Origin: Pectinatus frisingensis
GTDB lineage: Bacteria > Bacillota > Negativicutes > Selenomonadales > Selenomonadaceae
DNA length: 64,000 bases
Assembly: GCF_015732285.1 (NCBI RefSeq)
Contig: NZ_WIQU01000016.1
Coordinates: 1-64,000, forward strand
Direction: 5' to 3'
In this document: in pieces, positions 8,486 to 25,383 of the stretch
Numbering within the stretch: position 1 is the first letter of the stretch
Layout: every line of letters begins with the position of its first letter
Program-made: the position numbers and the translations under genes
The notes under the pieces: generated by a model
The model's input: the letters and a program-made list of their open reading frames with translations, nothing else
Told to the model about the DNA's origin: nothing
Databases searched by the model: none

Positions 8486-8689
8486 TATAAACACCCCACT
8501 GTTAGATATAATAATTTTTATTTAAACATTAATTATTTATATTACTTAAGTATTTAACATTAACCTTCCTTCCCAAAATGCACTTCTCGATGGCAATTCG
8601 GATAAAGCATAATCATTTTACTCTGGTTTAATGTGAATTATTTTATATAAATATTATTAAAAATTTTTTCATATTAGCTCCACATTTCT

Positions 8690-9223
8690 TTAATTAATTT
8701 CTAATGTATTAATGGATTTATCTATAGTAGGTATAAATTCTTTTGCATTACCTGGCGTTGTCACGTATATTACGAATGCCAATTTTTTATTTTTTAATAC
8801 CATATATATAATACCAACTAAAGGTGTACCATTTTGTGCAGCAGCAGTAATATAACTGGCAACCGCTGGTGTTCCATTTACCATGGTTTTTGTATAGTTA
8901 GGTTTATTAGTAACTGTTCCACTGCCAATCATTTTTCCAAACATAGAATATATAGCTCCAGATATTTGTGCATCCGAATAGTTGTATAGTGTTGTACTTT
9001 TAGGCATAGTGGGATAATAGATTGATACCAAATATATGAATTGCTCCTTCCCACCACTCAAAAAGGTATCATATAGATTATTATTTGAAATATAATTACT
9101 TTTTATTACTTTCCAATTATCTGGAATCGTTATTGATATATTTTGCGGATCAGTATAGACTTGTGCAAATACCGTACTTGAAGTCATATATAATAATAAA
9201 ACAATTAATAAAATCCTTTTCAT
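8690..9223 (-). CDS. Small secreted protein, paralogue of the one at 12316-12864
   Basis: The 177-residue protein has a signal peptide (MKRILLIVLLLYMTSSTVFA, cleavage near residue 20) and a mature part starting with VYTDPQNISITIPDNWKV, a PsbP/DUF1795-like fold pattern in which a short N-terminal strand precedes a beta sheet. The family has no agreed function. A clear paralogue lies at 12316-12864: both share signal peptide, YTDP after cleavage, VNGxPA in the middle and a C-terminal KSINTL. The gene lies 15 bases after the membrane protein gene on the same strand and is likely in its operon. The product should be outside the cytoplasmic membrane. Its place beside prophage immunity genes suggests a carried (moron) gene. 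Confidence 0.65.
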   Translation of the reverse strand: MKRILLIVLLLYMTSSTVFAQVYTDPQNISITIPDNWKVIKSNYISNNNLYDTFLSGGKEQFIYLVSIYYPTMPKSTTLYNYSDAQISGAIYSMFGKMIGSGTVTNKPNYTKTMVNGTPAVASYITAAAQNGTPLVGIIYMVLKNKKLAFVIYVTTPGNAKEFIPTIDKSINTLEIN

Positions 9224-9238
9224 ACGAAGCCACTCCTT

Positions 9239-10102
9239 TTAATTAAAGCCTAAACATTTATAAACGTATTTTCCCCCATTCCAATAAATTGATATGCCTA
9301 TTCTATTATCACTAATCAAATCAATATGAACTAAATTATCAGACTGTGATTTATATATTTTCATTTGGCATCCTTTAGCTATATTTGAAAAAGCGCCTTT
9401 ACTTATACTACTTACATCAAATAATTCTTGAACTTTATTATCTTTTTCCCCTATTATCTTAAAATCATTTAAAAATCCACCTGAGCCATCAATGAAATAA
9501 TATATTAAATCACTTTTATTATCTCTAGTGTTTGCAAAATAAAAAGAATATCCATTTCCCAATATAGTCGTTTTAAATAAAACATTTAAATCCATATCAA
9601 TAATAAATAGCTTTGTCTTTGCGCCCTTTTCACGTGTAATAAGTATATTATATAGATATCCTTTGCCTGCCATATCATATACCATTTTTTCAGGAAACTC
9701 TTTAAAACAAAAGAAAGGCTTTATCCCTGGAATGCTTTTTCTACTTTTTATTTTCATTAGTACCCACAAAACAGCCATAACAGTCACTGCATATAATGCG
9801 AAGAGTTCAATTGAGTCGACAGTTGTCAGCTTATTGTAATTTATAAATCTGACTATCTGTTTGCCATATTCTACGCTTACTGATTTTTCTGGTAATGTAT
9901 AAATATATACACCTGCGATAATTATATTAATAATTGCAACATGCCCAATGTGCATAATCATGGGGATTTTTTTCATAATATTAAATTTACCAAAAAGAGC
10001 AAATAAAAAAATTCCTATCATATAAATAACGATGGCAGTAAAAATAGTTGACCAAAATATAATTCCTGAAAAATACAACCAATTACTAATAATGAAACTC
10101 AT
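9239..10102 (-). CDS. Multi-pass membrane protein of unknown function
   Basis: The 287-residue product has about four hydrophobic segments in the first 125 residues (for example near 6-35, 45-70 and 97-118), followed by a soluble C-terminal domain of 160 residues rich in beta-strand-like stretches. I recognise no domain. AAGGAGG lies six bases before the ATG at 10102. It is followed directly by the small secreted protein gene, with 15 bases between them, so the two are probably translated from one message and could act together at the envelope. Confidence 0.6.
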   Translation of the reverse strand: MSFIISNWLYFSGIIFWSTIFTAIVIYMIGIFLFALFGKFNIMKKIPMIMHIGHVAIINIIIAGVYIYTLPEKSVSVEYGKQIVRFINYNKLTTVDSIELFALYAVTVMAVLWVLMKIKSRKSIPGIKPFFCFKEFPEKMVYDMAGKGYLYNILITREKGAKTKLFIIDMDLNVLFKTTILGNGYSFYFANTRDNKSDLIYYFIDGSGGFLNDFKIIGEKDNKVQELFDVSSISKGAFSNIAKGCQMKIYKSQSDNLVHIDLISDNRIGISIYWNGGKYVYKCLGFN

Positions 10103-10262
10103 GTAATACCTCCTTGTATTAAAATATAAGTTTTGCTAATATTTCAACTTTCTAGGTTAAAATTCACATTGCATAATATCATTCAACAGTCTATGAACCG
10201 TTTTAGGGTTCGGTTGTTTTTCAGGTATTATCCGATGTCACCAATCCCCACTATACTCATGT

Positions 10263-11813
10263 TTAGTGAACTTGTTTCATTTTCATACTTTCTCTATATT
10301 GTTCAGCATCGGGCAATTTTTTAAATTCTACCGTTCCGTCAAAATTTTCTTTAACAACATGTTCAATTTGGTCTAAGGAAACATTGAAAAATTCCCGACG
10401 TGTATTAATCAAATTAAGTTTTTTATTATCAAAAGCATTATGCAATGCAGTTTCCAACTTTGGTGCATCATCACTAAAAATCATCGCATGTACATCAAAA
10501 TTGAACGGTACCGATGCATCGCTTAGCTCATATATCCTCTCCATTGGATCTAGGCGACGTGTCATTCCAATCTTATAAATATTGTTTCCGAATGATCCTA
10601 TGTTAGAAATAACGTAAACATATCCAGCTCGTTGATTTGCTTCACGATAATCTATATCAGATAAATTTTTCTTAATTTCTTCCATCTGATTTTCCAAATC
10701 ATTAATTTTTTGCGTAAGGGCATTTCTTTCCTGAGAATCCAATGACTCTTGATACTGTTGTTTTGCGGCTTCAAGAGCATTGCTGTAATGTATCTTTTCT
10801 TTTTCAATCTTAAGGCGTTCAGCTTCGATTTCTTTCTGTAATCTGGCTTCTTCTCTCATACGAGCACGAACTTCACGCTGATGTTCTTTTTCCTTCTGTT
10901 TCATCTGTTGATATTCAAATGCTAAGTGCAATTCTTTAATCTTTAAATTATAGTATTCAGAACTAATATTAATCTGCATAACCTGCCCCAGTTTAGAAAT
11001 GGCAGTATAAGCATTTGTTATCCTTTTTTCGCAGGACTCAAAATTATTATATTTTACTTTTCCAGTGACATGTTCACATTCACTATTGAACGCCCTAAGT
11101 AATAGCTTTTGAGTATCTTGCACCATTTTCCGGCCTGCAATTTTATTGTTATTTACCGTCCAGTTTGTATCACCATCAGCAGCAGTTTTTTGTTTTATCA
11201 TATCTTTTTGTCTTTGTCTTATATAATCAAGTCTAGACTTATATTGCTCTGAATTAATAAAATCATACATAGGCTTATATAAAGAAAAATCTTGAAGTAA
11301 GGCTTCTTCATCTAATTCTATTATTTTTTCTTTTTTCTCAGCAATTTTATTATCTAAGACGTACATATATGTCTCTTTATTACTGATATCAGCTGAGATT
11401 TTTTCCACTTTTTTCTTAGTACGCATTTCAGCATCTTCGATTATTTGATGTATAATGGCATCTTTATTAGAAATTTTACTTTCTAATTCTGCAAGAATTT
11501 TTTTCTTTTCGATATTTTGATTTTCAGCATAAGTCGTTGCAGATTTAATAATATTATCTACTAAATCTTGTTTATTTTTAATTTTAGTATTTAAATTCTC
11601 TAATTTAGCTTCAGTTGTCTGCATAATCTTGTCTGCTTCTTCTTGAGCTAAAACGAGTTTATCCTGTGCTAGGACTCGTAATTTTTTCGTCTTGAAAATA
11701 ATTAAGGGAATAACCAAAATAGCTGCAAATGGTTTTATAGAACAAATTATCAGCAATATAGAAATCGTCACATTATTAAAATACCACTTTTCTTTGAGTG
11801 ATATCTTATCCAT
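10263..11813 (-). CDS. DUF4041 protein with C-terminal T5orf172 GIY-YIG domain
   Basis: The 516-residue protein begins with a hydrophobic segment (about 14-40), continues as coiled coil (about 45-180), then a DUF4041 region (about 185-300), a second Glu/Lys/Arg-rich coiled coil (about 305-390), and ends in a GIY-YIG-like T5orf172 domain: AGYVYVISNIGSFGNNIYKI, then GMTRR and the downstream AMIFSDD and LHNAF segments. T5orf172-type domains are nuclease folds common in phages and repressor fusions. Such proteins recur near prophage repressors, which fits the ImmA and CI-like genes upstream. AGAGG precedes ATG 11813. The role is unknown; DNA nicking or phage exclusion are possible. The family assignment is fairly sure. 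Confidence 0.8.
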   Translation of the reverse strand: MDKISLKEKWYFNNVTISILLIICSIKPFAAILVIPLIIFKTKKLRVLAQDKLVLAQEEADKIMQTTEAKLENLNTKIKNKQDLVDNIIKSATTYAENQNIEKKKILAELESKISNKDAIIHQIIEDAEMRTKKKVEKISADISNKETYMYVLDNKIAEKKEKIIELDEEALLQDFSLYKPMYDFINSEQYKSRLDYIRQRQKDMIKQKTAADGDTNWTVNNNKIAGRKMVQDTQKLLLRAFNSECEHVTGKVKYNNFESCEKRITNAYTAISKLGQVMQINISSEYYNLKIKELHLAFEYQQMKQKEKEHQREVRARMREEARLQKEIEAERLKIEKEKIHYSNALEAAKQQYQESLDSQERNALTQKINDLENQMEEIKKNLSDIDYREANQRAGYVYVISNIGSFGNNIYKIGMTRRLDPMERIYELSDASVPFNFDVHAMIFSDDAPKLETALHNAFDNKKLNLINTRREFFNVSLDQIEHVVKENFDGTVEFKKLPDAEQYRESMKMKQVH

Positions 11814-11853
11814 AGATTCAACCTCTTTTCATAAGTTAGATTTTTATAATATT

Positions 11854-12279
11854 TTACACATCAATTAGCTGACCTAGTGTCCGCTTCACTTCATGCGGAT
11901 TAGGTTGTTCATCATTCAAAAACTGTATTACCTGTGCTGCATCAATATCGCTTGAATATGACAATAAGTGAACGGCATATTCATTTGCCTCTCGTTCTCG
12001 ACGGCTTGGAATATAATAAGCCTTGTCAGCGTGTAGATAGTACCCATATCCGTTATGTAACTGCGAGTGACCAATCTCATGGCAGATAGTAATTTTCTGC
12101 CCTATGTATGACAAGTTATCGTTTAAAATTATATATTTTCTTCTTAATACACGCGCCAACATGCCACGAATATGGTCTGGTAAAGGCACGTGTATTATTT
12201 TTAGATCAAGTCCATCTGCCAGTTGAAAAGGGTTGGCTGTACCATATCTTTGTACGAGATTTCCCACTCGTATTTTCAT
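11854..12279 (-). CDS. ImmA/IrrE family metallo-endopeptidase
   Basis: This 141-residue protein has the zincin motif HEIGH (67-71) and a downstream glutamate in REREANEYAVHL, the pattern of ImmA/IrrE (DUF955, M78) peptidases. ImmA of ICEBs1 cleaves the element's repressor to trigger excision and expression. The gene is near the CI-like repressor at 13077-13460 on the same strand, separated by one secreted-protein gene. It therefore probably inactivates that repressor on a signal. The length is normal for a single-domain ImmA. It ends 40 bases before the DUF4041 gene. Regulation is unknown. Confidence 0.88.
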   Translation of the reverse strand: MKIRVGNLVQRYGTANPFQLADGLDLKIIHVPLPDHIRGMLARVLRRKYIILNDNLSYIGQKITICHEIGHSQLHNGYGYYLHADKAYYIPSRREREANEYAVHLLSYSSDIDAAQVIQFLNDEQPNPHEVKRTLGQLIDV

Positions 12280-12315
12280 ATATTAGAATCAATCCTTTTT
12301 ATATCTTGCTAAAAA

Positions 12316-12864
12316 TTATTCTATATATAGTGTGTTAATTGATTTTTCTATTATAGGTAAAAATTCGTCCGATTTATTTTTAGGGCAAGCGTAGGTTATC
12401 GTTATAACTTTTGTATCTTTTATAATATAGTATCCATACACTAGGTAATTATTATATTGATAAGTCTCGTCAAGTATTATAACAATAGCAGGATAACCAT
12501 TTACGGTAACTTTTTTATAGTTGGGGTTATTAAGTGCTTTAATATTAATTGTTGCTAGTTTTTTAAATACGTCATTAGATATATCTGCTAGTTCTTGTTC
12601 CGAGAAATCGTTTATAGTATTGGGCGGCCCAGAAGATGATATTTGAGATGTTATCATAATTTCTTTTTGCGCCTTTTCTATTGCAGCGCTATCTGCGAAT
12701 GTAGTTTCGTATTTATTTTCTGTAGGTAATTCCCTTTTTGCTACTAATTGATAACCATCTGGAATATCCAATGACACACCATGTGGATCTGTATACACTT
12801 TATCAGCAAACGCTGTTGAACAAACCAAGCACAATAAAAATGCGATTGTAAGTATCTTCTTCAT
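12316..12864 (-). CDS. Small secreted protein, paralogue of the one at 8690-9223
   Basis: The 182-residue protein has a signal peptide (cleavage near residue 20, after STAFA) and a mature part that starts KVYTDPHGVSLDIPDGYQLV. It ends with IIEKSINTLYIE, matching IDKSINTLEIN in the 8690-9223 product; a shared VNGxPA block is also present. No catalytic motif is evident. AAGGAGG precedes the ATG at 12864. It lies between the repressor and ImmA genes, where lysogenic morons often sit, and is probably expressed in the lysogen. Function is unknown. Confidence 0.65.
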   Translation of the reverse strand: MKKILTIAFLLCLVCSTAFADKVYTDPHGVSLDIPDGYQLVAKRELPTENKYETTFADSAAIEKAQKEIMITSQISSSGPPNTINDFSEQELADISNDVFKKLATINIKALNNPNYKKVTVNGYPAIVIILDETYQYNNYLVYGYYIIKDTKVITITYACPKNKSDEFLPIIEKSINTLYIE

Positions 12865-13076
12865 GGAGTCGGCCTCCTTGTTAAAATAAAAATTGGACTA
12901 CAAATTACACTGCAACCCGTTACATCCTCTACACAGAATAAAATAAATTGTTCATTTAGTTAACTCATTGTTTATTCAATTTTTTAAACCTATCGAATTT
13001 GATAGGTTTAAAATTTGGCCTGTTCAAAGATTTTCATAATTTAGTTTATTTTTTAACCGCCTCGAATTCGACACGA

Positions 13077-13460
13077 TTAATCTTTTTTCCTTTTATTCCG
13101 TTTTTTAGCATCAAAAAAAGCAAGCTCTAAAGCAGAACGAATTTTTGTGCGGTCATCATCAGTCAGCTTGTATGTATCGCTATCAAACGTCACTTCGGCT
13201 TGCTGTAATAATTTATCTAAATTTCCCAGGTCCTTTTTTGTTAGTTTGACGGAGTCGGTTTTAAGGGAATCATTTCCGAGTAAATGATCTGTAGAAACGT
13301 TAAAATAATTAGCAATCTTTTTTAACATCTCGGGATCAGGTGAAGTCCTTCCGACTTCCCAGCTACCAATAGCCTGTTGTGAGACGCCAAGAATAGTTGC
13401 TAAATTAGCTTGTGATAATCCCTTATTAGTGCGCTCTTTTTTTAATATTTCTGGTAACAT
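13077..13460 (-). CDS. XRE-family HTH repressor, CI-like
   Basis: Residues 1-60 form an XRE helix-turn-helix: LKKERTNKGLSQANLATILG, then VSQQAIGSWEVGRTSPDPEML and IANYFNVSTDHLLG. The remaining 65 residues are charged and probably form a dimerisation or regulatory part without a LexA-type protease. GGAG stands eight bases before ATG 13460; a GTG three codons upstream lies in that site and is not preferred. It is divergent from a Cro-like gene at 13614, and the gap holds four copies of an operator-like repeat. With ImmA nearby, it is likely the lysogeny repressor of the deleted prophage. Confidence 0.88.
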   Translation of the reverse strand: MLPEILKKERTNKGLSQANLATILGVSQQAIGSWEVGRTSPDPEMLKKIANYFNVSTDHLLGNDSLKTDSVKLTKKDLGNLDKLLQQAEVTFDSDTYKLTDDDRTKIRSALELAFFDAKKRNKRKKD

Positions 13461-13482
13461 AAAAATCACTCCTTCACTTATA

Positions 13483-13597
13483 TTACCTCAAAATGTTGTT
13501 ATTTGGAATATCTAACTACAAAATGAATATAAAAACATTGATAACTTCAAAATGTAGTAATATTATATACATATGGAGTAACTACAAAACGAAGTTA
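13483..13597. promoter_or_regulatory. Four operator-like repeats between CI-like and Cro-like genes
   Basis: Four 19-bp imperfect palindromes related to TAACTACAAAATGTAGTTA are seen at 13483-13501, 13513-13531, 13542-13560 and 13579-13597. All share the core CAAAAYG, and the last (TAACTACAAAACGAAGTTA) is the most symmetric. They are spaced 30, 29 and 37 bases, about three helical turns, in the divergent region. This is what a lambda-like operator set looks like. The repeats likely bind the CI-like and Cro-like proteins and set the lysis/lysogeny choice. No biochemical proof is available. Confidence 0.75.
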
Positions 13598-13613
13598 AAC
13601 GGGAGGGGAAAAA

Positions 13614-13841
13614 ATGAAAAAAAATTTATTGCAAGTTTTACGAGGTAATAAATCACAGAGCGAAATAGCTTCAAGTTATGGAGTTAGTCAGCAAGCGTGG
13701 CGCTCATGGGAAAGTGGGCGTACTGTCCCTAATAACGAAATCATGTTAAAAATGGAAAAAGAATTTCCAATACCTATGGAAGTAATTTTTTTTGATTCTT
13801 TTAACTACAAAAATGAGTTAAATAATGAGAAATCAGCATGA
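13614..13841 (+). CDS. Small XRE-family HTH protein, Cro-like
   Basis: The 75-residue protein is almost entirely an XRE helix-turn-helix (SEIASSYGVSQQAWRSWESG, then RTVPNNEIMLKMEKEF). It shares the VSQQA..SWE.GRT.P recognition helix context with the CI-like protein, so both probably bind the same operators. GGGAGGGG precedes the ATG at 13614. It is the first gene of the rightward, early-type transcript and is followed 9 bases later by a 71-residue gene. Cro-like or excision regulator is the best call. Confidence 0.82.
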   Translation: MKKNLLQVLRGNKSQSEIASSYGVSQQAWRSWESGRTVPNNEIMLKMEKEFPIPMEVIFFDSFNYKNELNNEKSA

Positions 13842-13850
13842 GGTGATTGA

Positions 13851-14066
13851 ATGAAAGACAGCAAGTTATTAAATGTAGTTCAGGAAGTTCTTGGTGTGCT
13901 AATCAAAAACAACCTGAGTGTTCAAGATTCATTAAGAACCTTGGATGTAGTTAATGAAAATTTGCTAAGAATAACCATAATACCTGATGATGCAAAAATC
14001 AAAGATATTAGGCCTAATGCATTAAGCCAAGATGTTTGCTTAACCAATCCGATGCCGTCTTATTGA
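13851..14066 (+). CDS. Small phage early protein of unknown function
   Basis: The 71-residue product starts with MKDSKLLNVVQEVLGVLIKN and has no recognisable domain. GAGGTGATTG stands before the ATG, and spacing of 9 bases to the Cro-like gene suggests an operon. Its last 53 bases overlap, tail to tail, the Cas2-like pseudogene on the other strand. The C-terminal part may therefore have been remodelled by the rearrangement that joined the two. Confidence 0.5.
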   Translation: MKDSKLLNVVQEVLGVLIKNNLSVQDSLRTLDVVNENLLRITIIPDDAKIKDIRPNALSQDVCLTNPMPSY

Positions 14067-14292
14067 TCCATCCTTGTTGGTTTTGCGTTATCTCACATAC
14101 GTATAAGTTATCATTTTTATCCATATGCTCACTAAGAATATTAAATATATCATTAGCAGAACCATTGTAGTACACAAACCATTGAGATTTTAATACTTTT
14201 GCCCAGCCAGGGAATTTTTCAATAGTACCAATAAGATTTGAATAATCTTGTCCAGGATTATTCAAATCTTATGAAACTAAGTAAACAGCCAT
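14014..14292 (-). pseudogene. Cas2-like (SinR-annotated) small protein gene with in-frame TAA
   Basis: Starting from ATG 14290-14292, which has a perfect AGGAGGTG site, the frame reads MAVYLVS, then TAA, then DLNNPGQDYSNLIGTI and continues to 14014. Intact relatives of this roughly 90-residue family read VSYDLN at this point, so the stop replaces a tyrosine codon (TAT or TAC to TAA). The family is ferredoxin-fold, related in shape to CRISPR Cas2, and is usually annotated as a hypothetical or SinR-like protein; its role is unknown. An 83-codon product could start at TTG 14265, but nothing resembling a ribosome binding site precedes it. I call it a pseudogene by nonsense mutation; a sequencing error or readthrough are alternatives. 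Confidence 0.65.
14231..14272. repeat. Perfect 17-bp inverted repeat inside the Cas2-like pseudogene
   Basis: ATAAGATTTGAATAATC at 14231-14247 has its exact complement at 14256-14272, with an 8-base loop. The right arm contains the interrupting TAA codon on the minus strand. If that codon had been TAT, the palindrome would be imperfect at exactly that base. Confidence 0.9.
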
Positions 14293-14322
14293 TATAATCA
14301 CCTCCTTCTAAGGTGATTATAA
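14292..14322 (-). promoter_or_regulatory. 12-bp hairpin sequestering the ribosome binding site of the Cas2-like gene
   Basis: TTATAATCACCT at 14292-14303 and its exact complement at 14311-14322 flank a 7-base loop. On the minus-strand message the stem contains the GGAGGTG ribosome binding site and the first base pair of the start codon. Such a structure would hide the site and lower translation, or it could be an operator. The structure is seen in the sequence; the effect is inference. Confidence 0.6.
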
Positions 14323-14690
14323 CATCACGGAAACAATAATCGAAGGGAGTGATTGAATGAAAAAATGAGTATAAGTCTAGCACTCCCTTATACTCACCTA
14401 ATCCCACATTTTTTTACCTGTCATTTTGCAGTATCATTCTTCGAGTTTTACGTGCAACGCCACGATCCAAATACGGTTAGTGCTAGCTAACCTGCTTAAA
14501 ATAGATTTCTCTTTAGCAGTGTGGTTCTGCATAAATTTAAAGCCCTTTAGCTTCAATCTTTAAACAGGAGCGGGCGAATTCAAAACCTGTGTCAAGATGA
14601 CCAGATCCCTTCCTCGCCTGTTGGCACTTTAAAAAATACCATGTTGCAAAACAATAGTCAAATATATTTGACATAGTAAAGGAGATAGTC
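14323..14690. other. Non-coding junction between prophage immunity and late regions
   Basis: This 368-base stretch holds no convincing gene. It contains short inverted repeats: GAGTATAAG at 14367-14375 with its complement at 14387-14395, GGTTAG/CTAACC at 14476-14493, and a perfect 16-bp palindrome GTCAAATATATTTGAC at 14657-14672 just upstream of a small ORF. Replication, packaging and head genes expected between the Cro-like and late genes are absent, so it probably contains a deletion junction. A minus-strand frame across 14537-14848 has no homology I recognise. Confidence 0.5.
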
Positions 14691-14780
14691 ATGGATTTTG
14701 GTGAGTTTCTAAGGCTTAACAGAAAAACATTTCCACTATTCGACAAAGTGCAGTTGCCAGTGGAAATGCTCCGCAAATAG
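14691..14780 (+). CDS. 29-codon ORF overlapping the 5' extension of the polyvalent frame
   Basis: ATG 14691 follows AAAGGAG with six bases between and encodes MDFGEFLRLNRKTF followed by 15 more residues. The first residues resemble the start of an HTH repressor. Inside this ORF, the frame of the giant polyvalent gene opens at 14720 without any strong start of its own. The ORF may be the translational start of that gene separated from it by a frameshift, or a truncated gene left at a deletion end. Low confidence as an independent gene. Confidence 0.35.
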   Translation: MDFGEFLRLNRKTFPLFDKVQLPVEMLRK

Positions 14781-14887
14781 AAACACACGGGAAAAACTAT
14801 ATACAGCAAGCCCAAAATGATCGAAAAATAAAACAAGCCATAAATCAATTACCGCAATCTAAAACGACTGGCGAAGCACTTATCCAA

Positions 14888-17800
14888 TTGGCTAAAGATA
14901 ATCAGATTCCCATGAATGCGAAATTGCAGACAGACTTACAGGCAAATAAACCTTTGGCCATAAAAACTATGCAGAATAGAATCACTCAAAAAGCTGCAAA
15001 GGAAGGATTGAATATAAATGAAAGTACCGAAAGTCAAAACACCGAAACCCCGCAAGGTATCAACACCGAAAATCAAGTTTCAGACAACATTCCTGAACAA
15101 AGCGAAAAAGAGCAAGTAATATCTAATAAAGCCACTGATAACCAGCAGATAGACGGTACAAATGTCGAACAGCCTGCCAATAATGCAATTCCTCCAAATC
15201 TGAACATTGTTAATTCAAAAGCCATGTATTCCGATAAAAATGGAGAATTCAGGGGCGGCATAAAAGATGGCAAACTGACAATATGGGCTAAAGGTACGCG
15301 CAAGAACGACGCACCTATAACCATGACACTCACCGACGTACAGCAGGCTGCAAATGAGAGCGCTAATAGTGCTGCAGGTATTCGTAGACTTGCCAAGCAG
15401 CGCATGATGGATACAACCGACGAGTGGATTAATGCAAGCGAAAATGAGTCATTGCGTCAAAAAAGGCGTAATTTATGGGAAAATGATACAGCCCAAGGGA
15501 AAAATTCAGCTTTTGTAAACAGAAATATTGATTCCATCGCCAATGTGGCCAAAGCACTTTATGAAAAATCAACGGGTGAAAAACCTGTTAGTGCATATGA
15601 AAAAAGGACACAGGGGAAAACCGTACAAAATAATGTTTCATCAAATGATGAACTAAAGTCAAAAGAAAATCAGCCTGAAATAAAGCATAAAGCACAATCT
15701 GAAAAGCAGACAAACAAAGACAGCAAATCACGTTTCGGCGATGAAAAGGAAGCTGAAAGCGACTTACTCAAGGCATTTGGGAAGCAATCTCCTACAGAAA
15801 AACCAGAATCTAAAAAACTGTTAAATATAATTGATGACAGTGACGATGCACTTTCTGCCGCCACTAAGGACTTTGACAGTGAAATAAATAATATTTCAGT
15901 GAATCCCGTATTTAACCCAAAACTTATGATTGCCGGTTTTAAAATAGGCATGATCCACCTGCAGCGCGGGGCGAACAATTTTGCTAATTGGTCTAATAAA
16001 ATGCTTGAATCAAGTGAAAAACTCAAACCATTTTTAAAATCAATATGGGAATCAATAAATGCCTATCCCGGAAATGTTAAATTTAATGAAAACCAGATGT
16101 CTGCCGTTATGCGCTATATTGGCACTCAATATGATAAGGGTATTACTGACAAAACCCAATTGAAGAATCTCCTTGAAAAAACAATAGGTAAAGAGTATTC
16201 TAACCTTATAGATAGTGCATATGCAGGAGTAATAAATTATCCGACCACGGAGGAAATAAAAAATGGGAATGTTAGCATCGACACCAAAGGATTGGTTACA
16301 CGAGATAGCGAAGGGCAAAATAAAAACACAGTGGGGGCAGATGATGAAATCACCAACTCCGGAACTGGAAGAAGGCAAGGTTTACAAAAGGCTGGAAAAG
16401 AAGGGGGTAGACTGGCAGGCAATCACAGCTTTTCTTCTGGTGGGACCGGTGGTGGCGGAACGTCTGGCAATAGCCCAGTACAGCCAGAAAAATCCGCAGA
16501 TACGGGCAGTGGCACCGGAAATACTAAATTATCAAGAAGCATTACAGATAGCTATGAAGGACAACCCGTATATGACGAAGGAGGATATCAATCAGCTGTT
16601 GAACCTTCTAAAGTCGGACGAAACAATGCAGGAAATATCATAAGGCCAAAAACGAGAATAGGGATTAAGCAGGCAGGAAACTTAGAGTCAATTAAAAAGG
16701 ACCTGCCTTTTTTATTGCCCGAACAGCAGGAAGATGTTGCTTTTGCCGAAAAAAGATTAATCAAAAATAATGGCAAGGGTGTTTTATTTACAAACGGTAC
16801 AGGTACCGGGAAAACATTCACAGGACTTGGTGTCATTAAACGTTTTGTTAATGCCGGTAAATCGAATGTTTTAATTCTTACGCCAAGCAACGAAATAATT
16901 TCTGCGTGGGTAAAGACAGCCCGTAAATTTTTTGGCTTAGCAGTAACACCATTGAAAACTACCAGTGACGCCGGCCATGGCATAACGATAACAACTTATG
17001 CCAATATGGGTGATAATGACAGCCTTGTTAAAAGGAGATTCGATCTGATTGTGCCGGATGAAGCGCACAGCCTTATGCAGTCTGAAAAAGGGGAACCTAC
17101 GGCAGCACTTGAAAAACTGCGGGCATTAACACTTCACAGCAATGGTTTTGATGAACGTTTCAAAATGTTGCATGCCGCTGATTACGCTAAATTAGATAAT
17201 TGGGTAGCTGAATCTAAAGATAAAAGAATCAGCAATAAAAGGTTGCCCAAACTTCAAGAAGGAATCGACAAACTTAATGCCCGTTTGCAATTAGACAGGA
17301 AAAAAGCTATTTCTGAATGGGAAAAGATGAGTGATAATAAAAAACCAAAAGTTACCTTTTTGTCAGCAACACCGTTTGCCTATGTAGCAGATATTGACTA
17401 TGCTAACGGATATTTGTTCAGTTACGACAAAAAAGATAGTGGTGGATATAATACACCAAATGGCAAAGAAGATTTCTTTATAAATAACTTTGGTTATCGT
17501 ATGCGCTACAATAAACTCACAAAACCTGATGCAGATGTTGACAATGGCATTATGGAAAGAAGTTTCCATGAAAAATTGCGCAAAGCCGGTGCATTATCCG
17601 GCCGTGTACTGACAATTGATAAGGACTATGACCGCGGCTTTATTCTAGTCAATGGCGGCATTGGCAAAAAAATAGATGAGGGTTTTGAATGGCTCAGCGA
17701 TAAGAATAAAAATAAAAGTAACTATGATGAACTTTATAATGTACTAAAAAGCCAATATAAACACTATGACAAAATGTATTTACTTGAAGCAATAAAGGCA

Positions 17801-20800
17801 AAAGAAGCTGTTGACCTGATTGACCAATATGTAAAATCCGGTAAAAAGGTAGTTATATTCCATGACTACAATAAAGGCGGTACATCAAACCCGTTCATTT
17901 TAAATGCAAAAAATTTAGCTTCCGAAGCTGCTAGAAACAATGACAGTTCATTACGTGATAAAGTTTTTAAACAATATGAAGACTTTAAAGCTTCACGACC
18001 TGATTTATTTAATCTTGATTTGAAGCAAATTCCGTCCCCTATAAAGGCATTAACAGCAAAATACGGCGACAATATTCTTTTATTCAATGGTACAGTTGAC
18101 AAAAAGACACGCTCTAAAAATGTACAACTCTTTAATGATGACAACAGCGGTAAGAGTATTATCCTTGTCCAGTCCGATGCAGGTCAGGCCGGTATAAGCC
18201 TGCATGATACTACAGGTAAACATCAGCGTGTATTAATCAATCTTGGGCTGCCGACGAAACCGGTTGCAGCGATACAAATAGAAGGGCGCATATATCGAGT
18301 TGGCAATAAATCCAACGCCATATTCAGGTATCTTAATACCGGTACAAATATTGAACGCAATGCTTTCGCTGATAAAATAGCGCAGCGCGCATCCACTGCT
18401 GAAAATTTAGCACTTGGCGATGAAGCACGTACCCTAAAGGAATCTTTCATTAATGCGTTTGATGAATCGGATGACTCGAACGAATGGGAAAAATATCTGC
18501 CCGGAAGCAAAAATGAAGGTACCGGCGGGAAAAATACAGATAAGGCAATGCGCTCGGATATAAATAATTTTGACAAGGCAATAACCTTTTACTATGGACA
18601 GCAAAAGAAAACTGCCCACAATAAAGTGCAAGAAGGTGCAGATTATTTTGCGACACCTGAACCGCTGGGCGAGAAAATGGTTGAATGGGCCAAACTTACA
18701 TCTAATGATAGTGTTCTTGAACCCTCATCAGGACACGGGGCTATTTCCAGATGGCTGCCAGAAAATACAAAGAACGTTATTATTGAACCATCAAGTACAC
18801 TGTTTTCAAAAGCAAAGATGAATTTGCAAAGTGGTAATGCTATAAATGGACGTTTCGAAGATTATCATATAGGGAATAAATTTAATGCCGTAATAATGAA
18901 CCCGCCTTTTGGTACTGGCGGTAAAACTGCGGTTGAGCATCTAGCTAAAGCGTTTAACCATTTAAAAGATGGCGGCCGCGTAATAGCAATATTGCCTGAT
19001 GGACCATCAATGCAAAAACATTTTGATAAATGGTTTTATGGCGATGGGAACGGCAAAACAAAAGCCGAACGTGACGGGCAGAAAAATGCCATCATGATGA
19101 AAGAAATATCCCTGCCAACTGTCACTTTTAACCGTGCCGGAACTTCAGTAAAAACCAAATTAGTAATCATTGATAAGCAAAATACACCAGAAGGAGTGAA
19201 AGGCGCACAATCACTGGCACAGGGAAATAGTTCCATAACTGCCGATAATGTCAACACTCTATTTGATAAGCTGCGCAATATGAACGCTCCGGAAAGAATT
19301 ATTCCTGTGCAAAAAGAACCATCTAATATTATTGAAACAAAAATTAATGGCAGCGACGTTGTTATTAATCGCAGTGATAAGACCGTAACCGGCAATACTT
19401 ATCCAGTAAAGACAGTTATAAAAAACTGGGGTGGTAGATGGAGTAAAACCCAAAAAGCATGGATATTTAAAGATGATAATAAGTTAAATGACTTTATCAA
19501 CCAATTCAGTAATGGACCTGCAAAATTGTCAGCTGCTATTAAAAATAATGATAAAATATCATCCACCGATCAACGTATTCAAAAAATGTTTGCCAGTAAA
19601 CAGGATATTGCACCAGCTGATTTGACCGGCAGAGAAAAAGCTATAGTTGACTTTGCCCAAAAGTTGGGTAATAAAGTCCAATTTTTTGAAGGCCCAGCAG
19701 AACTTAATGGTTATTATCAGGACAATACTACTTACCTTAATAGGAAAAGTAATGCCGGCCATTCATGGACTTTTTGGCATGAGTTGTTTCATTGGATGCG
19801 CAGCAACAATAATGAACTATATAACAAAATGGTTGATTATATTTCCAATACCCAGCAATTCACAGATAAGCAGCTTAGCGCATACAAAAAAAGCATCGGC
19901 AGAGAGAATTTAACTGATGCAGAAGCTATTGAAGAAATGATGGCTGACTATATGCCGGAGGTAAAGAACCGGGTCTCGTTCATAAAAAACCTGAGCAAGG
20001 AAAATTCTTCACTTGCACAAAAATTCGTCTCATGGATCCGCAGCATAATGGACAAATTTACTTCATACATGAACAATCCTAAAGCCGGGCTTACTACCAA
20101 TCAAAAAAATTCTATGGTTAATGCTTTTAATAAGTTGGCCAAAGACGTAGTTAATGAAAATGGACAACATATTTTTTCAGATAATGAACACCAAAAAAAT
20201 CTGACTGGAGAGCAGCGACTTGCCAGTGACGTCAAAAAGTGGCAGGGACTTTGTAATCTTTATGATTCTTCAGATAAACTCACGTGGAAAAGAAAAAACA
20301 ATGGTGTCCTTTTCAAGTTTATGGATATGCCGCTTGTTTTAGAAATGATTGGTGCCAAAAATATGAAGCTGAACGTATATGGCAGCTTTTTTGCGCATGT
20401 TATCAATCCCAAACACCCTGACATGGATATCAAGATCGTAAAAGAGTTACCGGCAGCTATGGCCGACCCCATGATGATTCTTAAAACCGATAATCCCAAG
20501 AAGTTTATCTTTGGACTGTCAGTAAAAGATAATAGCGGTGCCACAATTATTGTTCCTGTAGAATTGCAGAAAAAAGATGCTCGTTATGGCATAATTAATG
20601 TTTTAAATACTGCATACGGCAAAAACAATGCACAGTGGTTTATAAATGGCATTAAACATAAGGAATTGCTATATGTAAATAAAGAAAAAGCACTTCAAGG
20701 TGTAGGCCATCAGGGACGCTTTTCCCTGTGGGATCTTACACTCAAGAGTGCTCTATCTGATCCCAGTATAAAGACGGAAAATGATCTTGTCAAGGAAAAA

Positions 20801-23611
20801 TCAGCACAGCCGACCAGATATTCTGTCCAGGCAGACGAGATTGAAAAGCAGGATAAATCTTTCATGGAACGCATGAGTGAGAGACTTGCTGCCAAGCTTG
20901 AAAAAGGCAATGGGCAAATAAAAATCAATAGCCAGCAGACTGATAGTTCTTTTGGTATATTAAAACATTATGTCTGGTCTCCGTCACGAATAGCCGAAAA
21001 GGTGCCGGGTTTTAAACAGTTTTATAATTATGCCGATAACGCCATGAATAAGCTCACCAAACTTCGCTCCGACTACAGCAGAAAATTGGATACTGCCTTG
21101 AATTTAGTAAAGGACAGGGAAGATAAAAAAGCACTGTATGAAATATTATGGAATGGCGATGCCGAAGGAAAAGATTTTACTAAACAAGAATTGCTTGATA
21201 CAGGCGTAAAGGAAAATGTTGCCGATGCATATAAAGGTGTTCGCCAGCTTATGACCAAGGCTTATATCATGCTTAATGAAGCCAGACGGCGGGCACAGGT
21301 AAAATCAGAACACGTTATACCAAAACGTCTTGAAGAATTAAAGAATAATAAATTTGTCCATATTATTAAAGAAGATGATAGCGGCCTTGTCACATATAAG
21401 GAATATGCCAATTGGACAAAAAAGTTTGTCGTAAACAAAGAAGAATTCGACAGAATTAAAAATGATGCTGCCGTTCAGGTTTTAGATTATGAAAAAGCTG
21501 GATTTGATGATGCCGGGACACAAATGTTCAATGTAAATGTCAGGGAAAGCATACCGGATATCAACAAATTAAAAGGATATATACCACATTTTTTCCATGA
21601 TTATATGGTTAAATTGCAAACCACCGATAATGATGGTGCCGTTATTAACGCTACTATCGGCAGTGGACGCACTATCAATGATGCATATAAAATTGCTGAA
21701 AAATATCTTAGTGAGCATAAAACAAAGCCGACAGATAAAATTGCCATCAGCCCTAAGGTATTTGATTTTACCAGCCTTGGTCTCGATGAAACAAAATATG
21801 CTGCTGTTATGGGTGACAGGGATTATAACAAGATGCTAAATACAATTGCTAAGAATAATGATATGTCACTGGGGGAAGCCAAAGAATTAGTCCAGGGATC
21901 GGTAAAACAGAAAAACAGGCACAGGTTTTTTGGTAATTTTATGCAGCGCAAAGGTGTGGAAGGATTTGAAACAGATTTGGATTGGGTATTACGCCATTAC
22001 TTCAATTCTGCATCAAGGTATACTGCCCTTGAAACAGAATTCAAGCCAAAGGCAATAAGCTTATTCGAACGCCTGTACGGCCGGTTTGATAATGAGCATA
22101 ACGGTATAGCCAAATATACTAAAGAATATATCAATGATATAAACGGTGTTCCGTCAAATGTGGAAACATATATAAATAAACTGCTCCATAATCGTATTTT
22201 ATGGCGGTACTTAGCTGAATCCAATTTTGGGGATAGAGCTGCCGTGCAATTGTCTAACAGTATATCCCGCAAAATATCAATGCTGAAACTTGGTTTTTTA
22301 AATGTATCTTCTGCGTTTATCAATCTTACACAATTAGCTAATGCTGCTGCATATACTGGTGACGTGAAAGTATTGTGGCAAGCACTTCAAAGGGGAAGTA
22401 AGAAAAAATATACCGGTAAAGATCTGCGCACCCTTATTGAAAGCAATGTAATGAATGATATCGGGCTTGACAGCGGCAGCGGCTATGACATGTGGCGCAA
22501 TATGAAAAGTGTAAACCTTAAAAACCCGCATGGTATAGTAGATGTATTATCTAATGCCAACTCAGCATTTAACGCTATCGGTAATAAAGGAATGGTCTTA
22601 TTTAAGCAGACGGAAGGTGCCATTCGCCGTGGTACTGTACTTGCAGCATATGACAAGGCAATAGCAAAGGGAATGGACCATAAGCAGGCCATTGAATATG
22701 CGAAGGAGATTGACCGTAAATCCAACTTTGATTATTCAGTGGCCGACGCACCTAATGTTTTCAGGCGTGGAAGTATTTTTTCACAGCTGGCTTTACAATT
22801 TAAGAAATATCCGATTAAAGAATTAGAAGTTATGAAAGATTTTCTGCCTCTGATTTCAAATAATACAGACAAAAAACAAAAGATGCTGTTTTGGGGTGCA
22901 TATTTCCTGTTTGCCGGAGCCTTGCAGGTTCCATTTTTTGATTGGTTCGATGAACTATCAAAAAGTGTTTTGGGTAAATCACCAAGGGATTATGCGATAA
23001 AAAGCATCATGAAATTATGTGATGAAATGCCATTACTAAAGCCACTGGGGGAAATAGCACTGTACGGTATATTAGCACCGGCCAATATTGATATATCTTA
23101 CCGTGCAGGTGTAGCCGATGTACTTCCAACAAAATTATCTGATGCTGCCGGACCAACCGCGACAACAGTGTCAAGGACATTAGGCAATCTTATACAAGGT
23201 AACGCAATGGCAGCACTGCGCTCATTATCACCATCTTTATCCAACATCGTTATGGCAATGACGGGTGAAGCTGTCGGTAACCGCGGTAGAATAACAGCCC
23301 AATATTCGACACCATATGAAAGGCTTTTGCGGGCATTCGGGTTCCGATCGGTAGACGAGGCAAACAGTATTAACATTCAAAGTATTATTTATGATGATAA
23401 GGATAGACTCAGTCAGGACAAAAAAGATGCCATTGACGATTATATTAAAAACCCGTCCACTAAAAATGCAATGCGATTAAAAGAATTGAATGTCAAACCT
23501 GATACCGTGAAAAAAGAACGTGCCAGGAAAAATATGACTACAAGACAGCGTACAGAATCATCCGTAACTAAAGATGAGGCTAAAAATTATAAGTATATGT
23601 TTGGTTTTTAA
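14888..23611 (+). CDS. Giant phage polyvalent protein (helicase, N6-adenine methylase, zincin, MuF-like, membrane C-terminus)
   Basis: From TTG 14888 the frame gives 2907 residues. Domains seen in order: low-complexity N-terminus (1-300); helical segment (about 330-450); Gly/Ser-rich linker (about 460-590); superfamily 2 helicase with Walker A NGTGTGKT (about 636-643), DEAH (about 723), SATPF (about 825) and EGRIYRVG (about 1130); DNA N6-adenine methyltransferase with YFATPEPLGEKM (about 1255), VLEPSSGHG and MNPPF (about 1336); zinc peptidase WHELFHW (about 1628); a MuF-C-like part (about 1800-1945); a long helical C-terminus with a hydrophobic segment near 2668-2690. Polyvalent proteins of phages carry such enzymes into the host with the DNA to counter defence. 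The frame is open back to 14720, yet no ribosome binding site precedes 14888, so the true N-terminus may be lost. Confidence 0.85.
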   Translation: MAKDNQIPMNAKLQTDLQANKPLAIKTMQNRITQKAAKEGLNINESTESQNTETPQGINTENQVSDNIPEQSEKEQVISNKATDNQQIDGTNVEQPANNAIPPNLNIVNSKAMYSDKNGEFRGGIKDGKLTIWAKGTRKNDAPITMTLTDVQQAANESANSAAGIRRLAKQRMMDTTDEWINASENESLRQKRRNLWENDTAQGKNSAFVNRNIDSIANVAKALYEKSTGEKPVSAYEKRTQGKTVQNNVSSNDELKSKENQPEIKHKAQSEKQTNKDSKSRFGDEKEAESDLLKAFGKQSPTEKPESKKLLNIIDDSDDALSAATKDFDSEINNISVNPVFNPKLMIAGFKIGMIHLQRGANNFANWSNKMLESSEKLKPFLKSIWESINAYPGNVKFNENQMSAVMRYIGTQYDKGITDKTQLKNLLEKTIGKEYSNLIDSAYAGVINYPTTEEIKNGNVSIDTKGLVTRDSEGQNKNTVGADDEITNSGTGRRQGLQKAGKEGGRLAGNHSFSSGGTGGGGTSGNSPVQPEKSADTGSGTGNTKLSRSITDSYEGQPVYDEGGYQSAVEPSKVGRNNAGNIIRPKTRIGIKQAGNLESIKKDLPFLLPEQQEDVAFAEKRLIKNNGKGVLFTNGTGTGKTFTGLGVIKRFVNAGKSNVLILTPSNEIISAWVKTARKFFGLAVTPLKTTSDAGHGITITTYANMGDNDSLVKRRFDLIVPDEAHSLMQSEKGEPTAALEKLRALTLHSNGFDERFKMLHAADYAKLDNWVAESKDKRISNKRLPKLQEGIDKLNARLQLDRKKAISEWEKMSDNKKPKVTFLSATPFAYVADIDYANGYLFSYDKKDSGGYNTPNGKEDFFINNFGYRMRYNKLTKPDADVDNGIMERSFHEKLRKAGALSGRVLTIDKDYDRGFILVNGGIGKKIDEGFEWLSDKNKNKSNYDELYNVLKSQYKHYDKMYLLEAIKAKEAVDLIDQYVKSGKKVVIFHDYNKGGTSNPFILNAKNLASEAARNNDSSLRDKVFKQYEDFKASRPDLFNLDLKQIPSPIKALTAKYGDNILLFNGTVDKKTRSKNVQLFNDDNSGKSIILVQSDAGQAGISLHDTTGKHQRVLINLGLPTKPVAAIQIEGRIYRVGNKSNAIFRYLNTGTNIERNAFADKIAQRASTAENLALGDEARTLKESFINAFDESDDSNEWEKYLPGSKNEGTGGKNTDKAMRSDINNFDKAITFYYGQQKKTAHNKVQEGADYFATPEPLGEKMVEWAKLTSNDSVLEPSSGHGAISRWLPENTKNVIIEPSSTLFSKAKMNLQSGNAINGRFEDYHIGNKFNAVIMNPPFGTGGKTAVEHLAKAFNHLKDGGRVIAILPDGPSMQKHFDKWFYGDGNGKTKAERDGQKNAIMMKEISLPTVTFNRAGTSVKTKLVIIDKQNTPEGVKGAQSLAQGNSSITADNVNTLFDKLRNMNAPERIIPVQKEPSNIIETKINGSDVVINRSDKTVTGNTYPVKTVIKNWGGRWSKTQKAWIFKDDNKLNDFINQFSNGPAKLSAAIKNNDKISSTDQRIQKMFASKQDIAPADLTGREKAIVDFAQKLGNKVQFFEGPAELNGYYQDNTTYLNRKSNAGHSWTFWHELFHWMRSNNNELYNKMVDYISNTQQFTDKQLSAYKKSIGRENLTDAEAIEEMMADYMPEVKNRVSFIKNLSKENSSLAQKFVSWIRSIMDKFTSYMNNPKAGLTTNQKNSMVNAFNKLAKDVVNENGQHIFSDNEHQKNLTGEQRLASDVKKWQGLCNLYDSSDKLTWKRKNNGVLFKFMDMPLVLEMIGAKNMKLNVYGSFFAHVINPKHPDMDIKIVKELPAAMADPMMILKTDNPKKFIFGLSVKDNSGATIIVPVELQKKDARYGIINVLNTAYGKNNAQWFINGIKHKELLYVNKEKALQGVGHQGRFSLWDLTLKSALSDPSIKTENDLVKEKSAQPTRYSVQADEIEKQDKSFMERMSERLAAKLEKGNGQIKINSQQTDSSFGILKHYVWSPSRIAEKVPGFKQFYNYADNAMNKLTKLRSDYSRKLDTALNLVKDREDKKALYEILWNGDAEGKDFTKQELLDTGVKENVADAYKGVRQLMTKAYIMLNEARRRAQVKSEHVIPKRLEELKNNKFVHIIKEDDSGLVTYKEYANWTKKFVVNKEEFDRIKNDAAVQVLDYEKAGFDDAGTQMFNVNVRESIPDINKLKGYIPHFFHDYMVKLQTTDNDGAVINATIGSGRTINDAYKIAEKYLSEHKTKPTDKIAISPKVFDFTSLGLDETKYAAVMGDRDYNKMLNTIAKNNDMSLGEAKELVQGSVKQKNRHRFFGNFMQRKGVEGFETDLDWVLRHYFNSASRYTALETEFKPKAISLFERLYGRFDNEHNGIAKYTKEYINDINGVPSNVETYINKLLHNRILWRYLAESNFGDRAAVQLSNSISRKISMLKLGFLNVSSAFINLTQLANAAAYTGDVKVLWQALQRGSKKKYTGKDLRTLIESNVMNDIGLDSGSGYDMWRNMKSVNLKNPHGIVDVLSNANSAFNAIGNKGMVLFKQTEGAIRRGTVLAAYDKAIAKGMDHKQAIEYAKEIDRKSNFDYSVADAPNVFRRGSIFSQLALQFKKYPIKELEVMKDFLPLISNNTDKKQKMLFWGAYFLFAGALQVPFFDWFDELSKSVLGKSPRDYAIKSIMKLCDEMPLLKPLGEIALYGILAPANIDISYRAGVADVLPTKLSDAAGPTATTVSRTLGNLIQGNAMAALRSLSPSLSNIVMAMTGEAVGNRGRITAQYSTPYERLLRAFGFRSVDEANSINIQSIIYDDKDRLSQDKKDAIDDYIKNPSTKNAMRLKELNVKPDTVKKERARKNMTTRQRTESSVTKDEAKNYKYMFGF
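16263..16643 (+). CDS. Nested 126-codon gene overprinted on the polyvalent linker
   Basis: This +1-frame ORF lies wholly within the giant gene. GGAGG (16249-16253) stands nine bases before its ATG, as good as any start in the prophage. The product looks like a real helical protein: MGMLASTPKDWLHEIAKGK, then VDWQAITAFLLVGPVVAERL, then LNYQEALQIAMKDNPYMTKE and DINQLLNLLKSDETMQ. In contrast the polyvalent frame over the same bases encodes a Gly/Ser/Thr-rich, probably disordered linker. A disordered linker can tolerate an overlapping gene. Homology is not known to me; the central part could be a membrane or amphipathic helix. Alternatively the enclosing frame arose by fusion of two genes once separated by this one. 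Confidence 0.6.
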   Translation: MGMLASTPKDWLHEIAKGKIKTQWGQMMKSPTPELEEGKVYKRLEKKGVDWQAITAFLLVGPVVAERLAIAQYSQKNPQIRAVAPEILNYQEALQIAMKDNPYMTKEDINQLLNLLKSDETMQEIS

Positions 23612-23629
23612 TCAAGTGAGGTTTTTATT

Positions 23630-23704
23630 ATGAAAATACGTTCACCATGCCGCAGGAGAGCGGTTATTTTTATATCTAAGAGGGGGATGAAAAGTTGCAG
23701 ATAA
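23630..23704 (+). CDS. Possible 24-residue basic peptide before the holin
   Basis: AGTGAGG precedes an ATG at 23630 that opens 24 codons (MKIRSPCRRRAVIFISKRGM and four more), ending at TAA 23702-23704, overlapping the holin TTG start. It is very basic. It might couple translation of the holin gene, since GAGGGGG for the holin lies in it. It is too short to support by sequence alone. Confidence 0.25.
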   Translation: MKIRSPCRRRAVIFISKRGMKSCR

Positions 23705-24147
23705 TAACAGAGTTTTTTAAAAGCATACTGCCTGTCAGGACAGAGCTCGAGACAGGAACAGCCGTATCCATACTGGGTACGGTTTTTGTATATATGACCG
23801 GAGCTTTTGACAAGCTGATTGAGGCTTTACTGGTACTCATGGTTGTCGATTATATAAGCGGCATAATAGCAGCTTATGAAAATCCTAATAAAAGTCTGGA
23901 CAGCAGGCGTGGTCTTAAAGGCATTGGGAAAAAAATTATGATCCTGCTTCTGGTTGCCACAGCCCATTTTGTTGATTATGTGACCGGTCAGGAAATTGTC
24001 CGCACGGCAATAATATTTTTCTTTATTGGCAACGAAGGTTTATCAATATTAGAAAACGCTGCCAATGCCGGTATTCCTGTCCCTGACAGGTTGAAGTCCA
24101 GTCTTGAGCAATTTACTAAAGAAAAGAACGAGAAAAGGGGTAATTAG
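23695..24147 (+). CDS. Phage holin family protein
   Basis: The 150-residue protein matches the holin_4 (Cph1/TcdE) family. It has hydrophobic segments near 25-45, 48-60, 80-95 and 100-115, and the family patterns MVVDYISGIIAA, SRRGLKGIGKKI and NEGLSILENAANAG. Such proteins form holes in the membrane so that the endolysin reaches peptidoglycan. The start is TTG 23695 with GAGGGGG ten bases before it. The endolysin gene begins directly after the stop. This is a standard lysis cassette at the end of the late operon. Confidence 0.9.
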   Translation: MQIITEFFKSILPVRTELETGTAVSILGTVFVYMTGAFDKLIEALLVLMVVDYISGIIAAYENPNKSLDSRRGLKGIGKKIMILLLVATAHFVDYVTGQEIVRTAIIFFFIGNEGLSILENAANAGIPVPDRLKSSLEQFTKEKNEKRGN

Positions 24148-24642
24148 ATGGAAAGAGTAAAACTTATTGATACCGGACTGAGCTACGATTACAATCAATT
24201 GAAAACCAGAAGTAAAACAGATATGGTTGTTATCCATCACACCGGCAATCCCACTGACGATGATTTATCCGCACAGGAAATAAATGCCAGCCATCAGGCA
24301 CAGGGCTGGACCTGCATCGGTTATCATTATGTAATTCGAAAGAATGGCATTGTAGAATTGGGCCGACCACATTGGACTATTGGTGCCCATGCCTATGGTG
24401 AAAATTCCCATACAATCGGCATACACATCTGCGGCAACTTTGAACAGGCAAAACCAACAGCGGCGCAGATAGAATCACTGGCGATGCTGCTGGCCAATAT
24501 ATGTACCGATTATGGATTGCCGATTGATTCCAGCCATATTGTCGGGCACAGGGATTTGATGTCCACAGCCTGTCCCGGTAAAAATCTTTATGAAATGCTG
24601 CAGAAGATAATCGGCAAAAGCATCTTTTACCAACAGCAATAA
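24148..24642 (+). CDS. N-acetylmuramoyl-L-alanine amidase (endolysin, Amidase_2/PGRP)
   Basis: The 164-residue protein is a single Amidase_2 domain. MVVIHHTGNP supplies zinc ligand H30 with H31, WTIGAHAYGENSHTIGIHICG is the central sheet, and VGHRDLMSTACPGKNL holds the second histidine and the cysteine ligand. The enzyme cuts the bond between N-acetylmuramic acid and L-alanine. There is no signal peptide, consistent with release through the holin coded just upstream. There is no separate cell-wall-binding domain. GGGGTAATTAG precedes the ATG. Confidence 0.93.
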   Translation: MERVKLIDTGLSYDYNQLKTRSKTDMVVIHHTGNPTDDDLSAQEINASHQAQGWTCIGYHYVIRKNGIVELGRPHWTIGAHAYGENSHTIGIHICGNFEQAKPTAAQIESLAMLLANICTDYGLPIDSSHIVGHRDLMSTACPGKNLYEMLQKIIGKSIFYQQQ

Positions 24643-24697
24643 GCCGCTTGCATGGTGTGCAGACGGTATTTTTATGCCCCGAAGGGAGGTGGGATAA

Positions 24698-24895
24698 TTG
24701 AATTTATTTAAAGCATTAGCCGGATTATTTATAAAATCCAAGCTTGACGAACAGAAAAATAGATTGGCTGACAAACTAAACACCCAGATCGCCACAACCA
24801 ACTCGGACTATGTAAAAGGAAGAAATGCCGCATATCTTGATTTACTTGATGCAGCGGACAAGGCCGTTACCAACAAAATAGCAGAAAAATTATAA
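24698..24895 (+). CDS. Small late phage protein
   Basis: The 65-residue product starts at TTG 24698 after GGGAGGTGGG. It is helical and charged, with FKALAGLFIKSKLDEQKNRL near its start and AYLDLLDAADKAVTNKIAEK near its end, and has no recognised domain. Placed after the endolysin, it may be an accessory lysis or structural protein. It is followed by another small gene after 21 bases. Confidence 0.55.
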   Translation: MNLFKALAGLFIKSKLDEQKNRLADKLNTQIATTNSDYVKGRNAAYLDLLDAADKAVTNKIAEKL

Positions 24896-24916
24896 TTTAT
24901 GAGGAGTGTATTTATT

Positions 24917-25213: not shown

Positions 25214-25280
25214 TAAAATTATATTGCAAAATAAATAGTCCAAGTTTATAATGAACTTGAACTTATATTATCTTACTCAG

Positions 25281-25303: not shown

Positions 25304-25357
25304 TTTTTTCTTTTATATATAGATTAAAATCAAAATAAATATTTATTTACAACAAAA

Positions 25358-25382: not shown

Positions 25383-25383
25383 A

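Follow-up and report, generated by a model that had tools for sequence, protein, structure and literature searches.

A gene nested in the linker of a polyvalent phage protein

We analysed a stretch of 64,000 nucleotides from Pectinatus frisingensis (hereafter the window) and found within it a phage-derived element at positions 10263-25547 (Table 1). This element comprises a repressor, an M78 peptidase gene, a PD-Lambda-1-type protein, a giant gene, a holin and an amidase, and ends near a tRNA-Arg (25471-25547). No head or tail genes lie between the repressor and the amidase, and we found no clear att repeat for the element. It is likely to be a reduced prophage that carries immunity genes and has kept the overlap described below intact. 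A defence-like gene cluster lies beside the prophage (window 3281-11813) and includes a PD-Lambda-5_A-like gene (3281-4921), an AriA/PtuA-like AAA ATPase with an overlapping partner ORF (6094-8494) and PD-Lambda-1 (10263-11813, E 4e-157).

Table 1 Features of the prophage region and of the giant gene with its nested gene (window coordinates)
Feature	Position	Strand	Remarks
HTH repressor of prophage (context)	13077-13469	-	
Outer gene, polyvalent protein	14888-23611	+	2,907 aa from TTG start; frame open from 14720
Shine-Dalgarno (SD) sequence GGAGG	16249-16253	+	duplex -9.5 kcal/mol; 9 bases 5' of nested ATG
Nested gene	16263-16643	+	126-aa protein, predicted helical, in +1 frame of giant gene
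Outer-frame linker, Gly/Ser/Thr-rich	16292-16666	+	predicted disordered (pLDDT < 50); coextensive with nested gene
SF2 helicase module	16673-18559	+	directly after linker; co-occurs with nested gene
ResIII of helicase module	16724-17083	+	E 6.8e-14
Helicase_C of helicase module	18044-18304	+	E 2.6e-8
Methyltransferase domain MTS (PF05175), outer protein	18710-18997	+	E 4.3e-5
MuF C-terminal domain (PF18819), outer protein	20411-20692	+	domain match
Holin (prophage context)	23695-24147	+	downstream of giant gene
N-acetylmuramoyl-L-alanine amidase, endolysin (prophage context)	24148-24642	+	

The giant gene encodes a single phage protein with both an SF2 helicase and a DNA methyltransferase, the combination expected of a DarB-like protein. 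Nested within it, upstream of the helicase module, is an ORF of 126 codons (381 bases including the stop) that begins with ATG. The position of this ORF, its ATG, its GGAGG at nine bases and its 126 residues had been read from the sequence alone in an initial annotation, and all held exactly. That annotation also described a likely disordered Gly/Ser/Thr-rich linker in the outer protein over the nested stretch. This held as well: an AlphaFold model of the outer protein over 15920-16939 was ordered at both ends, and the predicted disorder between them spans nearly the same stretch as the nested gene. For the nested protein, AlphaFold returned a compact eight-helix model with a pLDDT of 91.1 and a pTM of 0.86 (alignment of 19 sequences), a predicted helical globule that agrees with the well-formed helical protein first proposed.

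Length was rejected as evidence that the nested ORF is coding. It proves little by itself because seven antisense ORFs of 108-131 aa were found within the same giant gene. With the outer protein held fixed and codons drawn from local usage, the +1 frame stayed open in 0.35% of synonymous resamplings. SD pairing was far stronger at nested starts, with a median of -7.4 kcal/mol versus -2.2 kcal/mol at other in-gene ATGs (5,538 other ATGs in outer genes; p = 9e-18), and both the ATG and the SD are conserved among the nested copies described below. The suggestion that the protein is made at high level rests on this strong SD pairing only; expression is inferred, and there are no expression data.

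We considered whether a +1 frameshift, and not internal initiation, might yield a product in which the nested frame is fused to the N-terminal region of the giant protein. In favour of this, some copies have no stop in the nested frame for up to ~34 codons 5' of the ATG. Against it, a stop lies two codons 5' of the nested ATG in the window, the ATG and SD are conserved, and two stand-alone relatives start at the same residue as the nested proteins. A frameshift product is therefore very unlikely.

The nested gene belongs to a widespread, unnamed family

We searched 60 related genomes for the 126-aa protein and found a copy with 52% identity in a different genus of the same bacterial family (genome matched to Megamonas sp. 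UBA1796), where it too lies inside a polyvalent gene. Viral contigs, species genomes, phage records and plasmid records yielded further nested copies. Altogether we collected 29 distinct overprinted proteins, all in the same frame and place, 5' of the same helicase module. Every copy combines an open outer frame with a nested frame at +1 relative to it; the third frame usually closes within a few dozen codons, 91 at most. The carriers are Negativicutes prophages and phages or plasmids of Serratia, Klebsiella, Pseudomonas, Vibrio, Ruegeria, Comamonas and Acinetobacter, among them Serratia phage Parlo, Klebsiella phage vB_KpnP_ZX1, Pseudomonas phage Skulduggery, Ruegeria phage 45A6, two Vibrio phages, and Comamonas and Acinetobacter elements. 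Matches in a broad Bacillota sample were confined to Negativicutes. Copies in A. baumannii were recovered by a profile search (E 2e-16) within an outer ORF of just 1,283 codons. We aligned 28 of the 29 overprinted copies, the A. baumannii copy being outside that alignment; one alignment was too divergent for a pattern search.

Two Acinetobacter loci (L061, 3559-7410; L016, 3621-9617) retain the nested gene within outer genes that are shorter and centre on the helicase region, in one case annotated as methyltransferase type 11.

The nested gene was unlisted in all inspected annotated regions that carry gene tables, with the caveats that PLSDB tables are known to be incomplete and that one record (L063) lists no features. 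The family is unannotated in the inspected phage records because gene callers rarely report fully nested same-strand genes, and the whole protein family appears to have been overlooked. These sequences define a widespread and so far unnamed family of proteins of ~120-136 aa, whose helical fold is predicted by model.

Selection maintains the sequence of the nested frame and the continuity of the outer frame

Because both proteins are read from the same DNA, their conservation can be compared directly. Among the 28 aligned copies, amino acid identity was higher for the nested protein than for the outer protein in 373 of 378 pairs, with means of 53% and 32%, respectively, over the 108 pairs that have 40-97% nested identity. 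We then compared four-fold degenerate sites of the outer frame in 14 pairs, restricting the comparison to outer degenerate codons with the same amino acid. Only 10.7% of such sites differed inside the ORF (n = 441), compared with 56.9% upstream (n = 606) and 58.8% downstream (n = 1738). Outer codon positions 1/2/3 differed at.43/.27/.21 inside the overlap and at.47/.39/.62 and.30/.21/.55 in the flanks, so that the third position, the most variable outside, becomes the least variable inside. The reduced synonymous change in the linker frame that the initial annotation had named as support was thus found, and it is confined to the nested stretch. A sliding window along the giant gene showed a single trough, located at the nested ORF, in five pairs. 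In a sixth pair, from Vibrio (L014/L015), the trough was less clean, as the upstream part also had low divergence; this pair would not be sufficient alone to prove the case, and the giant gene is probably mosaic. Within 4464-6383 of L014/L015, synonymous divergence is very low upstream of the overlap and high downstream, a pattern that may reflect recombination within the giant gene.

Nested identity was also far above what the outer proteins force (z = 5.6-14.6 in eight pairs). The converse comparison gave a different picture: 48% of four-fold sites in the nested frame differed (n = 479), close to the rate without constraint, and 228 of the 231 differences alter the outer residue. With the nested protein held fixed, however, an open outer frame would almost never arise by chance. 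Since nested synonymous sites are nearly free, sequence selection acts mainly on the nested frame. Both frames are open and conserved as protein in divergent relatives, that is, in the 28 aligned copies plus A. baumannii. Together, these sequence data show that the nested frame is selected for its sequence and the outer frame for its continuity. This is the opposite of the pattern that would have refuted the gene, namely stops appearing freely in the nested frame with constraint on the polyvalent frame only. We infer that the outer linker is a flexible spacer whose residues hardly matter and which need only stay open and hydrophilic.

These results bear on the possibility that the ORF is a chance opening, or a by-product of outer composition or GC-rich coding. 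In its favour, GC-rich relatives often have an open +1 frame when the outer protein is held fixed, in up to 83% of resamplings. Against it stand protein identity, the substitution pattern, SD pairing, the confidence of the structural model and the existence of stand-alone homologues, and the four-fold result already refutes it. We regard this explanation as all but excluded. We conclude that 16263-16643 is, almost beyond doubt, a genuine protein-coding gene, on the same strand as the polyvalent gene and fully nested in its linker; this rests on sequence evidence, and translation has not been shown experimentally. The core of the initial annotation, a real overprinted gene in a polyvalent linker, therefore held, as did its prediction of homologues, which were found in the same nested frame.

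The nested gene is linked to the helicase module

The helicase module was present in 8 of 380 Negativicutes genomes, and the nested gene accompanied it in 8/8. Searching phage records for the module, even at E 1e-3, returned eight records, the same eight that have the nested gene. Comamonas and Acinetobacter plasmid relatives carry the nested gene too, and the Acinetobacter elements have kept both it and the helicase module though the outer protein is reduced to about 1,280 residues. The sole case found of the helicase without the nested gene was in Aquimarina, where a bare helicase gene has neither linker nor nested gene. A helicase scan of viral contigs, run with a single protein query, gave no matches. 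It is mainly because of this co-occurrence that we prefer to view the nested protein as a partner of the helicase-methylase module. However, the co-occurrence could reflect linkage alone, because loss of the nested gene would damage the outer linker.

Stand-alone copies lie beside defence systems

Two genomes carry a gene of the family free of overlap (L021 and L047), so that homologues coded separately, a further form of support named at the outset, were also found. In L021 (1461-9025), the homologue makes up residues 1-125 of a 557-aa ORF whose remainder is of unknown type, 300 bp before a type I restriction-modification (R-M) operon, hsdR-hsdS-hsdM. In L047, a stand-alone gene of 136 aa (6552-6962) lies directly before a type II-A cas9-cas1-csn2 locus (cas9 at 1970-6034). 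An 84-bp repeat lies on both sides of it and contains a palindrome found only there, twice, in the genome. At a related cas9 locus (G330), cas9 and a similar upstream neighbour are present but the gene and the repeat are both missing. Searching the genome of the window for Cas9-family proteins was uninformative because the controls were silent. In a tree of the family, each stand-alone copy fell within a different overprinted clade (support 98/89 and 90/88), and two separate escapes from the overlap are therefore apparent. Each case is confined to a single genome; as single cases, they are a lead to an anti-defence role and not proof of one.

Searches of Pfam, NCBIfam, PHROGs, PADLOC and PDB sequences with the nested protein gave chance-level matches only. 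Foldseek searches with its model reached best E values of 3.3 (PDB) and 0.95 (BFVD), and the best VIA-align hit (Z 3.9) was to a designed protein, which is uninformative for helical bundles. The absence of a family or fold match does not prove a new fold, and the predicted fold gives no functional clue. Nested copies have a pI of 4.1-9.3 and a net charge of -14 to +3 (pI 6.6 and net charge 0 for the window copy). A DNA-mimic antirestriction protein of the Ocr or ArdA type was rejected on charge, as the nested proteins are not consistently strongly acidic.

One possible explanation is that the nested protein acts against host defences in its own right, by inhibiting restriction or CRISPR-Cas, and merely travels in the giant gene. 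Both stand-alone copies adjoin defence systems, the gene in L047 is bracketed by repeats that are missing with it from the G330 locus, the outer protein itself belongs to an anti-restriction type (PMC5512222), and there is a precedent in ardD, an antirestriction gene that overlaps tniA (PMC3533173). However, there are merely two stand-alone cases, and defence islands also gather phage remnants. The protein is not a DNA mimic and has no PADLOC match, and the basis for an anti-CRISPR role is proximity to one cas9 only. Moreover, an inhibitor would not need strict linkage to one helicase module.

A second alternative is that the protein is a factor in virion morphogenesis or ejection, such as a capsid-loading chaperone or internal head protein, with defence not directly involved. 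DarB-like giants are virion proteins: P1 DarB is one, the P1 protein Ulx is reported to aid its localization (PMC9024508), and the DarB-like giant gp69 of JC1 was detected by mass spectrometry in virions (PMC9144972). Small Dar proteins of P1 aid loading, and the nested protein is small and predicted to be helical. Against this, the gene is retained in the short Acinetobacter outer genes, and the stand-alone chromosomal copies have no phage structural genes nearby. We consider this alternative unlikely.

A proposed partner of the helicase-methylase module

The explanation we prefer is that ribosomes would initiate within the giant mRNA at the SD of the nested gene, independently of the outer start, and the small protein would thereby be made in cis with the giant protein. 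It may be dedicated to the helicase-methylase module, in whose linker its gene sits, as a partner that aids the module's folding, its loading into virions or its action on injected DNA. One stretch of DNA would serve both frames, with a tolerant outer spacer that need only be open and hydrophilic. We judge this explanation as a whole, gene and partner role, to be very likely (probability roughly 0.85), a figure that mostly reflects confidence that the gene is real and under selection. The role of its product is far less certain. A dedicated-partner function is inferred by analogy with the small P1 Dar proteins that assist DarB, there are no interaction data, and it could well prove wrong. Stand-alone loci without the helicase module fit a free-acting protein better than an obligate partner. 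The initial proposal of an anti-defence or structural helper likewise remains inference only.

The initial annotation held that the gene was overprinted on a tolerant linker. The tolerant linker was supported, but the order of origin may be the reverse, with the outer linker written over an older nested gene. This order is at least as plausible because the nested protein is folded and constrained while the outer residues are nearly free. Codon usage gave no polarity for the age of the frames (15/28, p = 0.16), and we found no outgroup with a separate small gene between the upstream and helicase genes. A bolder, joint reading is also possible. The family would be an undescribed one that is chiefly an ancient overprinted gene; the giant's linker would be the overprinted product, formed when the upstream and helicase modules were fused by reading through a folded gene; and at least two copies would have escaped to host defence loci (type I R-M and Cas9). 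If true, this reading points to a new anti-defence or defence-modulating protein.

The nested protein is a candidate partner or inhibitor in phage counter-defence, and its natural stand-alone versions suit biochemistry. The locus provides a bacterial-virus overlap with strong comparative evidence, spanning elements of Bacillota to Proteobacteria, and a clean division between folded and spacer roles. It also suggests the disordered linkers of polyvalent proteins as a place to seek hidden genes.

Comparison with known systems

Our searches of the open literature on DarB, polyvalent proteins and overprinting returned no mention of a nested gene; most subscription papers were outside their scope. 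Like DarB-like polyvalent proteins (P1 DarB and the Bcep22-like giants), the outer gene combines a helicase and a methyltransferase in one giant beside lysis genes, and its relatives are annotated as DarB-like antirestriction or PLxRFG. In the DarB-like archetype, the methyltransferase comes before the helicase and is preceded by LPD36 (Iyer et al. 2017, PMC5512222), whereas in the window the helicase precedes the MTS domain. Our helicase search at E 1e-3 gave no match to P1 darB.

P1 Ulx resembles the nested protein in being a small protein coded beside a darB-type gene, but it is a separate downstream gene of 146 aa. Ulx was considered as a homologue and found to have no sequence support (hhalign probability 0.1% against the nested family), although a distant relation is not excluded. 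The ardD gene of Tn5053, whose function is antirestriction, also overlaps another mobile-element gene (PMC3533173). Unlike the nested gene, ardD lies antisense inside a transposase gene; the nested gene is on the same strand, in the +1 frame, and conserved across phyla. As in viral overprinted genes (reviewed in PMC8227390), two proteins are encoded by one DNA stretch. Compared with such genes generally, here it is the nested frame that is constrained and predicted to be folded while the outer frame is a disordered spacer, and the overlap is conserved between elements of Bacillota and Proteobacteria.
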